A stretch of 64,000 nt of DNA from Branchiostoma floridae (lineage: Eukaryota; Chordata; Leptocardii; Amphioxiformes; Branchiostomatidae), in NCBI RefSeq assembly GCF_000003815.2, contig NC_049993.1, forward strand, positions 10,974,623-11,038,622. The letters run 5' to 3'. Position 1 is the first letter of the stretch, and every line of letters starts with the position of its first letter. The notes under the pieces are model-generated. The model ran no database searches. It was not told where the DNA came from and saw only the letters and a list, made by a program, of their open reading frames with translations. Below are positions 33,798 through 47,163 of this stretch, in pieces. Position numbers and translations under genes: made by a program.

Positions 33798-36566
33798 ATG
33801 ACTGAACCATTAGTCGGCAGCATCCGCCGCTACACAAAGTACACGGCGCTCTGTATACTTCTCTTCAGCAACGTGGGGATGTACTATTTTCTGGTAGGTT
33901 ATTCGGACTCGTTTCTCCGAACAATCCATCCGTTTGATTCCATGGCATTCTGATAAATGTATTTGCATCCATCGACAAGTTGATGATTCGCTTATAATTC
34001 ATGAATTTTACCTGCCTCTTTTTCAGTCAATCATAACTGATTTAAGTGTTCTTTGTTCTAGTGTTCTTCATGTCATAAAGGGGTTCATGAAGATCACGAA
34101 ATTCAACAATGATGGACCTTGATGATAATACCAGAAGTTAAAATGTGGATGATGTGAACTGAAGCACGTTCCCTATTAAATTCATTCATTGGCAAAATCA
34201 TGTCCGAAGGATAATTACACGTGCAGTCTCAAAGTAAGAATGAAGTAATGATGTACTTACCGCACTAGTTTCTTGAACTATAAGGTACCACTTTTACTAT
34301 AATGTTGATGCGTTTAACTTCTTATTGGAAGGCAGTGGATAATGAACTACCCCACGTTCTGCAATGAGAGGTATCTGACTGAACAAAATACAGCCGATCC
34401 CCAAATGTATCTCCCTTCTCTTGTTTTTGTTGTCCCATCACAGAAAGGTTACTGGAACATCGAGTACATCTACGCCAATCAACTGGGCTATTTGGTGACG
34501 TCACCGAAATCAACATTTCGAGTTGGGGAAGAATTAAGTGTGGTCATCTCAGCTCGACACAAGCATAATATGACCGCAAACGTCGGTGACTTTTTACGGG
34601 CCTCTATTTCAACATCTAATTCACGTTCAAGTGCTGTCGGCATCATCAAAGACAACGCCGATGGCACGTACACTGTGACGTTTCGACTCTTATGGACAGG
34701 AAATGTTAAAATTAATATCCAACTTATCAGTTCTCGACAAACTGTAGATATCATAGAACGAACTGCTCTTGATTTTCCCGCCGACAAGGTCATGTTTCGC
34801 AGACGCTACCAGAACGGAAGCAAAGAGGAAGTTCAGGTGCTGTGTAACGTGTATCCCGAAGTCTTGCACGGAGACGGCGGCGTGTGTAATTATTCGGACC
34901 CGCACGCGGGGGCACGGTGGTTCTGTGAGAAGGCGGTGACAGTTCCCTGTGACGCCTGGGGCTTCCACGGCGTCCACATGTACAGGGCGATGAGAGACAT
35001 GCTAGAGAAGGGAGAAGAGAGTCGTTTCAGGAAGTACGTGTATCGAACACAAATATAGTAGTAGGGATAGTAGGGAATAGGTTACATGTTATGGGGTTTA
35101 TGTTGTTTGCTCAAGACAAACTAATCGTTACATTTGCAAAAGTTATCAAATTTGATATCAGGACTATTTCTGTACAAGTACCACAAATGATACAACCTGA
35201 TGACAGTGATGATAGTAACACTCAGCAGGAGTACAGTAGAATAAACGGTAGAATAATTCATCATCTTGAATGGTTTCTTCCATAGCACATTTTCCAACGG
35301 TGAAGCAAACGCAGCAAGAATTCCTCTCTCTGGAGACCCAGATAGAGTCTACGTCATGGAAGGTAGGATTATTATATATGATTTTTCTCTTCATTTCTCG
35401 GCGTTAGTCTCCTACGTAGACTAGCAGTACTCGCCTGTAGCCTATACAAAATACCTCGGGCTGATCCGGGTTGTGGTTTCCACTTTTGTGGGTGTGGCAT
35501 CAAACCACCTGTCAGCCAATCAGAGATTCCGCTTTACCGTTAAGGTGAAATATCTAGGCGATTCTCTGATTCGTTGACAACTACTTTTGTGGCTAAGCCC
35601 ACAAAATTAGAATCCTCAGTCTCGTTCAGCAGAGTCTCCCATTCTGGCTCCCAGTGTATATTGTATAGACTGCGAGCAAGGATCTGCGAGGGGAGGGGAG
35701 TGTGCTCGATGTTAGATAGTATAATTCATTGACTCTGTTGATCATGATATTTCAGTTTCACACTTCAGTTCTGCAGACTTCACTGAAAATCGTACTGTTG
35801 TAACTTAGGCATGGATCTCTTGGCCAACCGCACCCACTGCATGCCGGGACATCCCAACCCTCCCATCTCCGGTTATTTCCATCATGGCGTCTGGCAGTCG
35901 CTAGTCTGTGAAAACAGGCATTTCTCCACAGTACCAGAGTGGCAGCAATGTCTCACAGACAAGACCATGCACTTCTTTGGGGATTCCACCATACGACAAT
36001 GGTACGAAGAACTCGTGAAGATCTTGCACATGACTGAGATACCTATTCCAGACGCCGTTCACAACACGGGTCCACTGCTTGCTCACGACTCAATAAATAA
36101 CATAACGGTGAAGTTTCGAATCCACGGACCACCTGTTAGGTCAACTTGGACTCCGACGTTTCACCTTAAGTACGTCGCTAACGCCATTGATGAGATCGAA
36201 GGTGGACCAAACGATGTAGTCGGCATTTCTGTCTGGGCTCACTTCACCTCGTTCCCTGTGGACATCTATAAAGAAAGACTGTTCGCGATCCGGGTTGCTG
36301 TAGAACGGCTACTCAACCGGAGTCCGGGGACTGTGGTCGTCATCAAGTCTGCAAACACGCGCATGGGCAACGAACTGATCGGAGGCAACTGGCTGGGTCA
36401 CAAGTTGGACCTGATCATGAGAGAAGTGTTCGCCGGGATGCAGGTTGTTTTTGTTGACGCGTGGGAGATGACTAATGCCCACTGGAACAAGGACAACATT
36501 CACCCTGCCTCTGAAATAGTCAAGCAAGAACTTGAGTTCCTATGTTCTTTTATTTGCCCACTTTGA
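33798..36566 (+). CDS. NXPE-family protein (four coding exons)
   Basis: Exons 33798-33893, 34444-35033, 35286-35362 and 35809-36566 (TGA); all phases agree and give 506 residues. Residues 16-32 form a signal anchor (YTALCILLFSNVGMYYFL), fitting a type II Golgi/ER protein. Exon 2 is the neurexophilin-like Ig-type domain (FRVGEELSVVI, VGDFLRASI, DNADGTYTVTFRLLWTGNV). Exon 4 is the SGNH/PC-esterase-like domain: the nucleophile motif is GDSTIRQW, and the C-terminal D-x-x-H is in DNIHPAS. Human NXPE1 has been linked to sialic-acid O-acetylation; a related carbohydrate acyl-transfer role here is inference. Exon 2 may instead begin at 34336 (adds 36 residues), but the acceptor before 34444 has a far better pyrimidine tract. 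The length is close to the 540-560 residues of vertebrate members. Confidence 0.9.
35484..35606. mobile_element. Fold-back element in NXPE intron 3
   Basis: Imperfect inverted repeat. The left arm TTTTGTGGGTGTGGC ... GTCAGCCAATCAGAGATTC pairs with the right arm, whose complement reads TTTTGTGGGCTTAGCC ... GTCAACGAATCAGAGAATC. It looks like an old MITE or a folded SINE-like repeat. It does not touch the splice sites. Confidence 0.7.
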
Positions 36567-36623: not shown

Positions 36624-36815
36624 AAATGGTTACTACCCACAGTGTCCTCATAAAAGTCAGCAGGCGCGGAAGTTTTGAATCCGTCCAGTTTCTCTTGTCG
36701 TCTGGAATGGCCCGATAACATTCCAATGTTGTTGTTTTCTGTAACGTTTAACTTACCAGAACAGAATGCGTGTTTTTTGGAATTTCCGAGAAGCACACTT
36801 ACTTTTTTTGTTCAG
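36624..36815. repeat. Dispersed repeat, copy 2
   Basis: Related to 22334-22540 in the same orientation (see shared blocks there). It begins about 60 bp after the NXPE stop codon and could therefore form part of its 3' UTR. Confidence 0.75.
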
Positions 36816-37011
36816 TCATGAATTGCTAGTATTCGACTCTGTTAGCCTTTATCTAAAATGTGGTGAAATGATGAGCATCCGAGAGTCGTTGTTTTTTCTA
36901 TGACCAACATAATCGAGGACAAGTAGATATTACACATTCTTATAAGAAGGCTTACAAGTTATCAGACCAATCATAATGAGAAAAAAAAACGTATTTATAT
37001 TTATATTTTGT

Positions 37012-37023
37012 TATTGTATGGAT
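37012..37023. repeat. Target-site duplication, left
   Basis: TATTGTATGGAT, identical to 39304-39315; together they bracket the retrotransposon. Confidence 0.9.
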
Positions 37024-38619
37024 ATTAAGAGTTCCTCCCTCAGTGTATGGTCTCTGTGTGGTGTTTTTGCCAATTACCATGACCTGAGTCTTCTTGGCAT
37101 TTGCCTTGAGTCCGGCTAGAGAGCTGTTCTTACATAACAGGTCAGTAGTTTCCTGCAGGCCGGGTTTTGTGTTGTCCAGTAAGGCCATATCATCAGCATA
37201 GTCAGTATCCATGACCGATACCAATGGCTGTTGAGGAGTTTCCTGAATCAACACTGCACCTGCGCTGAGTCGTTTGTTTTGTTCCGTGAGGTAGGCTGCC
37301 AAGTTGATGCACACATTAAAAACTGGTGGACCCTGTATGTCGCCCTGGCCCGTTCCGGATTCAACATCGAACCAATTGGACTGTTCCCCATTGACTCTTA
37401 CTGCGCTCACTGTCTTGTTGAAGAAAGCCTGTAAGACTCGAATGTACTTAGCAGGAAGGCCATAGAAAGAAAAGGCTTTCCAGATGAATTCTCGTTTGAT
37501 ACTGTCAAAAGCAGCCTTGAAGTCAATAAAGTTTATGTACAGTGGGATGTTATATTCAATACTTCTGTGGATGATTGTTTGAAGAGAATAAATCTGGTCA
37601 ATGCATGATCTGTTCTTCCGAAAGCCACACTGATTTTCCCTCAGCAGATTTTCCAGTCCCTTGTTGATGCGCCTCAGGATAACAATTTGGAAGAGCTTCG
37701 ATGCTGTTGACCTGAGTGTTATCCCCCTGTTGTTCCCGCAGATTGTAGTGTCACCCTTCTTTGGCAGCACAACGATTATACCCTTAGCCCAGTCCTCAGG
37801 GATAACCTCACCATACCAAACCTTGGCAAAAAGAGCTTCCAACGCCTTCGTTAATCCCATCGCACCGTACTTAAGTTGCTCGTTGGCTATTTCATCCACT
37901 CCCGGAGATTTGTGGTTTTTCAGTTTTTTAAGGGCATCCTGGATTTCTTCACCTGTTGGCGGACCATCATCATCTCCAAGGTAGGTAAAACTGGGGACCC
38001 CTGGTATGCTATCTAGCTCAGTTAAATCAGTATCTTCCTGTTGCGGGTTCAATAACTCTGAGAAGTGTTCGGCCCACCGTTTCCGTTGAGCGTCGGGATC
38101 AGAAATCAACTTTCCAGACTTGTCTCTGACTGCCGAGGACTTCTTACTGCGTTTGTTTGACAAGATTTTGATCTTCTGCCAAACTTCTCGCTGATTTCCT
38201 TGTTTCGCTGCATCCTCTAGATCCGTGGCCACTCTAAGAGCCCAGTTATTATCATCAACTTTGCAACTTTTCTTCACCATTTTGTTTAACCGTGAGTATT
38301 CTGACTTGTTCACATCAGATGTTGGATCACGTCTTTTAACCTGAGCTCGCTTCATAATGAGTTCTTTTGTCTTCTGTGATAGGTGTTGCTGTCGTCTTTT
38401 CTTTGGACGGTCACCAAGCACTTCAGATGAGGCAGAGTGAACAACCACTTTAAACTTCTCCCATGTGTCCTCAATGTGTTCATCTTCTACATACAAACAT
38501 TCAAAACGATTCTTTAACTCGATGTTATACTCTGTGACCTTTGTTCCATCACGTAGATGTTCCAAAGCTGGAAAAGACCGTTGTGTAGCTTTCAGTTTGT
38601 CTACTGCTTTTAGTTTGAC
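37024..38619 (-). pseudogene. Inverted reverse-transcriptase segment of the retrotransposon
   Basis: About 530 codons on the minus strand without a stop. A basic linker and a region containing DKSGKLISDPDAQRKRWAEH (typical upstream of LINE RT domains) come first, then the RT motifs: VVLPKKGD, NNRGITL, LRENQCGFRKNRSCIDQI, INFIDFKAAFDS (catalytic Asp), GTGQGDIQGPPVFNV, and YADDMALL (catalytic Asp pair). The frame then leaves the element at 37024 and reads 24 unrelated residues of flanking DNA. Not expressible as a normal product because its C-terminal part is on the other strand. Confidence 0.93.
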
Positions 38620-39276
38620 TTGGAGGTGGAAGGATATCCTGTTGAACAAGTCAGCACTTTTACTTACCTGGGGACCACATTCACTAGTGATGGAACATTA
38701 GACACTGAAATCTCAAAGCGTATCCAAAAAGCTGCTGGCGCCTTTGCTCAACTTGGCAAGATTTGGAATAACAGTAACATTCTTCCGTCAACTAAGATCC
38801 GTATCTACGAAGCAGCAGTCATCACAATCCTTACATATGGGAGTGAAGTCTGGGTAACCACCAAGACACAGAGCAGAAGGCTGGAAGTATTCCACCAGAG
38901 GTGCCTTAGGAGAATTCTTCGCATCAGATGGTACCACCGTGTTGCCAACTTACACATACTGCAACAAGCAGAGACTACAAGTGTTGAAGCGATTGTGGCT
39001 GCCAGCAAGCTTAGATGGTTGGGGCACATCCTTAGAATGACCAGGGAGAGGCTCCCAAGACTGCTGTTGGAGTGGACACCGAATCACGGCAAAAGGTCAA
39101 GGGGAAGGCCCAGACAGACGTGGTTGAACAGCGTGATGGAAGACTTGAAGTTGATCACAGGGAATAACAGACTGAGGGTGCGCGAGGTTGAAGCAATGGC
39201 CCAGGACCGCCCGGAGTGGCGCAGAATGGTGCGAAAGAGACGTCAACGCCTTGGTGCAGGCCACTCACCAAGCTGA
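38620..39276 (+). pseudogene. Forward C-terminal segment of the retrotransposon ORF
   Basis: About 218 codons to TGA. It carries the conserved post-RT region of these elements: TFTYLGTTFTSDG, KIRIYEAAVITILTYGSEVW, RRLEVFHQRCLRRIL, KLRWLGHILRM and KRSRGRPRQTWL. The breakpoint with the inverted segment lies at about 38610-38623. Confidence 0.93.
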
Positions 39277-39303
39277 GGAGACCTAACCAAGTATCAAAGT
39301 AAG

Positions 39304-39315
39304 TATTGTATGGAT
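39304..39315. repeat. Target-site duplication, right
   Basis: TATTGTATGGAT, second copy, directly after the element's AAGTAAG end. Confidence 0.9.
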
Positions 39316-39872
39316 GACCACATGCACTACTAAGATGACCACAAGCTTTTATTTCAGAGCTGTGATATTTGCAGCAATGATGAACTCATGATGAAATAAT
39401 CAGACGCACTTGTGTTCCTATGTTATTTCATTTGTCTCCTTTGATAATATGGGTATCATTTTGGTTTCGTCCCGAAGAAGATCCGGTAACATTATTTCAT
39501 AACACTAGAATGCAATCTACTGAATGTCCTTTGGGTCACACCAACGAATTATTACGTAACCATTTTACTCTACACCTGACCCACCTTGCGAAGTGCAGCA
39601 GCGCTATCTATTGGTCCTGATGAAAACTGCACATTTTCAATTTGATAACTGACAAACAATACACGCGCCAGGCCATTTCGTGTCACATCTTATGTAATTA
39701 AGGTTTGAAGAGGGCGTTTTCTCTGAAAATGTGCCACTAAATTTTAGATTGACAATGTTCGGTGTAGACTTTCAGAGTTGGTCCAAAAAATTTTTGGTTC
39801 ATTTCTTTAGGCCTGTAAATACCCCTAATATAAAGTGCCCAGTCCCGTCGACGTACGTCATCATAAAACAAG

Positions 39873-46126: not shown

Positions 46127-47122
46127 TCAGAAGTACTTATCCCCACATGGTCGACAGGCGCACTCCTCTACTATTGACACTTTTCGTACTTTAGTCTCGT
46201 TCCCTTGACAGTTCAGGACGACTTTTTCGTTGCGCATGCGCGTTGGCGTACAGGAGGCGCACGAGTCGAAAGGCCCCGGATGTTGCCGTGGGATGTGAAA
46301 GGAGCTGCACTGTCCATAACAAAACTTATTTCTCACCAGTTTTGTTTCGCATCCTGGGGACGTGACCTCCTGATCGAAGGCCACTGCCTTACACCAGTCT
46401 TTGCGCAAGTCCCTCTTCCTGAGTGGTAGTCGCACGACGCTGCCAAACGCGTACAGTGTGCTCTGTCCGATTCTCACTTTAACAGATTTCTTCTCCGATC
46501 TTCTTTGTGCTCGGTCTTTCTTATGTTTTCTCCGACGTCGGTTGCGACGAGGCTTTCTCCCTCTATACCGCTTTCTCTCATACCGGTCATCGACCGGGCT
46601 TGTCTGATCCTGTTCACTCGACGCATGCGCGGATCCCTCGACTTCTTGGGGCAGCTCCGCCTCAGTGAAGAGACCTAGGGCCGTTTTTATGACGTCATCG
46701 TCACCTGGAAGACGGTTGTCTGACTCATCATTAGGCATGCGCGTTGTCTCCTCTGTCTTTGACGCTGACTCGTCAGCAAGAGCTTGTTCTTCCCCCTCCT
46801 CTATCCTGTGAACAGCAGAGGCCCGGACGACGATTTTTTCCTCAACCACGGTGTCGTCTGACACTCCCTCTCCGTCCCGACCCCTCCCAACCGGCGGCCG
46901 AATCAACCCGAGAGTCTGAAACCGATGGAGCAGTTCTTCGGCGCCGAAGGACGAGTCGGTGTCGCCGAGAGACGAGGAGATCGTGTACCTGAGTCTGTCT
47001 AGCACTGACCTGTACTCCGGGTGGCGGGTGGGACTGGGCAAGGTGGAGGCGGCGGCAGCCCGCAGGAACAACACCAACGTCACGGTCACCAGACACGGCA
47101 TGCTCCTCACGCTCTTCTTCAT
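46127..47122 (-). CDS. Secreted cystine-knot antagonist of the DAN/Cerberus family
   Basis: 331 residues in one uninterrupted frame. A signal peptide (VTVTLVLFLRAAAAS) is followed by a long acidic pro-region, a very basic stretch (RRNRRRRKHKK) likely to be cut by proprotein convertases, and a C-terminal cystine knot from about residue 242. The knot has DWC, GCETKLV, NKFCYGQCSSFHIPR, SCASC, VVLNC and VEECACRPC. It has ten cysteines (244, 258, 268, 272, 288, 291, 305, 321, 323, 326), one more than the usual DAN pattern of eight plus one. NET at 308 is a possible glycosylation site. DAN proteins bind and block BMP, Nodal or Wnt ligands outside the cell. VEEC and the overall shape favour Cerberus/Dand5; RKDWCKA also resembles Gremlin, so I give no symbol. 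Confidence 0.92.
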   Translation of the reverse strand: MKKSVRSMPCLVTVTLVLFLRAAAASTLPSPTRHPEYRSVLDRLRYTISSSLGDTDSSFGAEELLHRFQTLGLIRPPVGRGRDGEGVSDDTVVEEKIVVRASAVHRIEEGEEQALADESASKTEETTRMPNDESDNRLPGDDDVIKTALGLFTEAELPQEVEGSAHASSEQDQTSPVDDRYERKRYRGRKPRRNRRRRKHKKDRAQRRSEKKSVKVRIGQSTLYAFGSVVRLPLRKRDLRKDWCKAVAFDQEVTSPGCETKLVRNKFCYGQCSSFHIPRQHPGPFDSCASCTPTRMRNEKVVLNCQGNETKVRKVSIVEECACRPCGDKYF

Positions 47123-47163
47123 GCTTCACCACACACTTCTTAAGACTCCAACTTCTTAAGAGT

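Follow-up and report, generated by a model that had tools for sequence, protein, structure and literature searches.

The question raised by this locus is how one retrotransposon of the LINE type in the genome of Branchiostoma floridae came to lie in two parts of opposite direction between a single pair of target repeats. The initial annotation had read the arrangement as the layout predicted by twin priming, best known for mammalian L1, here in a young element that is not L1. The window, by which is meant the whole stretch of 64,000 nucleotides that was analysed, was therefore considered together with the relatives of the element in the same genome, and the locus is very probably a single twin-primed insertion of an RTE-type LINE.

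Layout and identity of the element

The duplication TATTGTATGGAT that encloses the insert is exact (Table 1), and when both strands of the 64 kb are considered its exact copies are confined to these two positions. No other stretch of 12 identical bases recurs in the 64 kb at a spacing of 2280-2304. The insert between the target repeats measures 2,280 bp. Its left part, of about 1.6 kb, was correctly recognized from the start as the reverse transcriptase part in inverted orientation, and its minus-strand open frame contains the RVT_1 domain at residues 283-512 of 529 (E 6.8e-24). The right part, of about 0.7 kb, is the 3′ end in forward orientation, open on the plus strand over 38626-39276 within a frame of 220 residues. 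Both halves lie in open frames, neither being interrupted by a stop.

Table 1. Parts of the insertion in positions of the window, with element bases numbered on the relative L009.
Feature	Position	Strand	Remarks
Left target-site duplication TATTGTATGGAT	37012..37023	+	Last two bases (AT) also match the element at the proposed internal priming site
Inverted 5′ segment, endonuclease-RT spacer and RT domain	37024..38625	-	Element bases 1113-2716; outer (left) end is the proposed internal priming site, inner (right) end is the 5′ truncation point
Inversion junction	38626..38627	.	2-bp microhomology GT common to both halves
Non-inverted 3′ segment	38626..39303	+	Starts at element base 2723 and ends with the TAAG-type tail (about 3400); contains the last part of the single reading frame
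Right target-site duplication TATTGTATGGAT	39304..39315	+	Exact match to the left one

The numbering reference, L009, is a copy of 3,402 bp flanked on each side by an 11-bp repeat. Its open frame, 1,092 codons long, encodes one protein that combines an APE-type endonuclease (PF03372, E 8.9e-10) with a reverse transcriptase (PF00078, 5e-25), and no other frames of 120 codons or more were found inside the 3,402-bp element. The copies shown end in TAAG-type repeat tails, with no poly(A). The features of RTE elements are present, namely a single APE+RT ORF without ORF1, a short 3′ UTR with a tetramer-type tail and a 12-bp duplication, while the two ORFs and the poly(A) tail of L1 are not seen. The best matches of the reverse transcriptase among solved structures are L1 ORF2p (1.1e-34) and R2 (5.7e-18), which shows kinship among LINE reverse transcriptases only and not the clade. 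Judged from its sequence, the element appears RTE-like in layout (single APE+RT frame, TAAG tail), a clade call made from layout and not from a tree, and it is on this same footing that the earlier description of a non-L1 element is supported.

A close parallel is SR3, an RTE-clade element of Schistosoma mansoni, which likewise has a single APE+RT frame of ~1,000 residues and a short 3′ UTR ending in TAAG tetramers, with target duplications of 10-12 bp (PMC1291365). In the tree of its authors a Branchiostoma floridae element is placed close to SR3 (PMC1291365). The window copy differs in its inversion, as no 5′-inverted SR3 copy is mentioned in the accessible portions of that report (PMC1291365).

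Breakpoints and relatives in the same genome

The initial annotation had called for alignment to relatives in the same genome, and this fixes the breakpoint. In L009, L010 and L011 both halves run in one direction and are spaced by ATTAAC, which codes for Ile-Asn. These six bases are missing from the window copy, the loss being 4-8 bases depending on how shared bases are assigned. The protein had been described as continuous across the break, and near-continuous is what it proves to be, since the two residues Ile-Asn are lost and, as L009 and L010 read GGTLNINVEGYP, the ‘E’ of ‘EVEGYP’ comes from the flipped piece. Similarly, the statement that almost no sequence was lost holds for the inner break and fails at the 5′ end, where the inverted part begins at L009 base 1113, so that 1,112 bases of the element are absent.

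Both joints carry short matches. The GT at the inner joint fits either half, and at the left joint the AT that ends the left target repeat continues the element at its internal break. At 2 bp each, these microhomologies are short enough that they can be chance matches. As would be expected from twin priming, the flipped piece adjoins the target repeat with its 3′ limit and the inner joint with its 5′ limit. Whether the 12-nt overhang could pair strongly with the internal site was also considered. A comparison over 2,923 positions of L010 did not clearly support such pairing: beyond the last 2 bases the pairing energy is unremarkable, with 1129 of the 2923 sites equal or better, and when G-U pairs are counted 72 of the 2923 are as good or better, by a measure that was picked post hoc.

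A search with the 2,280-bp insert through the genome in which the window lies (431 contigs, 513,431,437 bases in all) gave at least 51 matches, and among the matches listed the inverted joint is spanned by the window copy only. The three closest relatives, L009, L010 and L011, are 0.25-0.74% different from the window copy. For L010 there are 4 differences in 1602 bases (left half) and 3 in 675 (right half), for L009 and L011 they are 0.36-0.74%, and the changes private to the window copy number 2 in each half. Since each half shows few differences from the same relatives, the halves are similarly young and belong to one subfamily, within which one RNA would be indistinguishable from two near-identical RNAs as their source. 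The proposal of recent activity is borne out for the family, which was probably active recently given its low divergence and the 1,092-codon open frame of L009, and does not extend to the window copy, which is truncated and flipped.

The normal order in the family was assessed at the 32 places that have a 3′ end, which correspond to 33 loci (the window, L009-L013, L016-L018, L020-L025 and L026-L042, with L015 as the other half of L016). These cover the family of the window copy, a second subfamily that is ~78% like the first, and older relatives of 69% identity and up. The parts are inverted at one of the 32, the window, and run in a single direction at the other 31. No second inverted copy was found among these places, many of which are short or old, the shortest having been fetched with ~1.5-2.5 kb per side, such that an inversion could escape notice. 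Of 11 relatives examined, 10 have target repeats, which measure 10-17 bp when bases that also belong to the tail are counted in. The exception is L020, where none was found and N bases lie nearby.

L014 and L019 were left out of the count of 3′ ends, as they are internal pieces without a 3′ end within the fetched stretch. L019:3245-4009 is a fragment of 765 bp that is 99% identical to the second subfamily, and ACTATAAC, seen by eye near both of its edges, is possibly the target repeat of a 3′-truncated insertion. L014:2868-3266 is a 393-bp reverse transcriptase fragment (98.7%) beside what appears by eye to be a hairpin repeat, and is possibly sequence captured near another mobile element.

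Proposed mechanism and its rivals

The target repeat, the order and orientation of the parts, the breakpoints, the microhomologies and the normal order in the relatives are direct observations. It is the position of the target repeat at the internal break, the structure of the joints and the normal order elsewhere that support the twin-priming layout. In the mechanism proposed here, the element endonuclease would nick the target DNA (the order of the nicks is presumed), and the bottom strand would prime on the TAAG tail and copy about 680 bases, which became the 3′ segment. With its cut 12 bp from there, the top strand would anneal near base 2717 within the same RNA, which is taken to be a single template, and prime a second cDNA toward the 5′ end that would halt at base 1113. 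The two cDNAs would be joined via the 2-bp match (GT). The 4-8 bases of RNA that separate the priming site from the point where the first cDNA stopped would be lost, and repair would yield the 12-bp duplication. The evidence for twin priming here is a single case.

An ordinary 5′-truncated insertion, the 5′ part of which was inverted later by a chromosomal event, would give the same order of parts, and such an event seems to have taken place in the family. The sequences L015:3223-4047 and L016:3194-3874 lie 59 kb apart on contig C4 in opposite directions and are apparently the halves of one copy of the second subfamily, with a break that falls, in element coordinates, almost where that of the window copy does (by eye, within about 1 bp, the alignment being gapped there). 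This copy was considered as a second twin-primed insertion and rejected. Its 8-bp target repeat, TATTCATT, is found once immediately behind the tail of the 3′ half and once close to where the 5′ half begins, 5 bases outside its aligned start. This fits a normal insertion that was split later by a 59-kb inversion, and its internal break and its tail share no repeat of 6 or more. In the window, on the other hand, the target repeat abuts the internal break exactly, and this difference favours twin priming. A later inversion would require one breakpoint to fall exactly at the border of the target repeat, and it is an improbable origin for the window copy. Related G-rich palindromic repeats flank both ends of the L015/L016 break and occur elsewhere in L015 as well.

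An assembly error that flipped the 5′ half is more doubtful still. Two closely related copies of the family do coincide with assembly trouble spots: in L012:3945-7111 a gap within the element, at a similar element position, is bordered by N on either side, and contig C378 breaks off within a copy (L010). Nevertheless, the ends of such a flip must coincide exactly with the target repeat on one side and with a 2-bp microhomology on the other, six bases must be dropped, and there is no N in 36700-39700. It is hardly credible that the halves are two independent insertions placed back to back, given that the outer ends have one repeat in common, that the left half lacks a TAAG-repeat tail of its own and ends inside the reading frame, and that no repeat of more than 6 bases connects the inner joint to either outer end. 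Equally remote is the idea of a derived subfamily in which the inverted order is normal, which is opposed by the single direction at 31 of the 32 places and by the occurrence of the inverted joint only once among the 51 matches listed.

Comparison with twin priming in other LINEs

The insertion resembles human 5′-inverted L1 copies in having an inverted 5′ segment, a forward 3′ segment and a target duplication, which in L1 is 10-20 bp (PMC4245944), in the microhomology at both joints (PMC2912911), and in the gap or overlap between the two cDNAs (PMC12016303). Microhomology of 2-5 bp is reported at about 70% of the 5′ joints of 5′-inverted L1 (PMC2912911). Among young L1 insertions 18-31% are inverted, and among human L1 copies as a whole about 10% (PMC12016303, PMC2912911), against one of the 32 places with a 3′ end examined here, a figure in which many short old fragments are counted.

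In one cell-culture study, 5′ inversion was seen only with L1 in human cells, with the exception of one Nimb-2_DR insert in chicken cells (PMC4245944). That insert, from DT40 cells, is as here a 5′ inversion by a non-L1 LINE, the duplications of which peak near 12 bp (PMC4245944). It is a single engineered event of another LINE family, whereas the window holds a natural genomic insertion. The same study suggests that an overhang of about 5 nt may not be long enough for priming on RNA, and cites 10-12 bp as the duplication peak of RTE elements (PMC4245944). If duplication length matters, twin priming would be expected to be within the reach of RTE elements, with such a peak. The length is not by itself a predictor of the scar, since L1 gave no 5′ inversions in chicken cells despite duplications of 15 bp (PMC4245944), and the host matters too.

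Elements of the L2 and RTE clades are reported to have made snRNA chimeras by template switching only (PMC4476161). No description of a twin-primed RTE insertion was found in the open-licence literature as far as it was covered, although one may still be in print, and in the portions seen of PMC2718515, PMC11371274 and PMC5389967 the term twin priming appears only in the reference lists. The mechanism is a known one for which little documentation was found in the clade to which the element appears to belong, and the locus is a clean natural example of it in which the breakpoint is resolved to a few bases. It is somewhat more likely than not that twin priming is a general by-product of LINE integration wherever at least some 10 bp separate the two nicks, that this holds for RTE-type elements of an invertebrate-type genome as well, and that it is not special to L1 in mammalian cells. 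Counting inversion scars over LINE clades of differing duplication length would test the overhang idea from existing genomes.

As to its surroundings, the insertion lies just downstream of an NXPE-type gene on the plus strand (34318-36566, with Neurexophilin PF06312 and NXPE4 C-terminal PF24536 domains), the frames of which stop ~450 bp upstream of the left target repeat. The minus strand of the window encodes at 46127-47125 a DAN-domain cystine-knot protein (PF03045, E 6.7e-28), by family a secreted antagonist of the Cerberus/DAN type.
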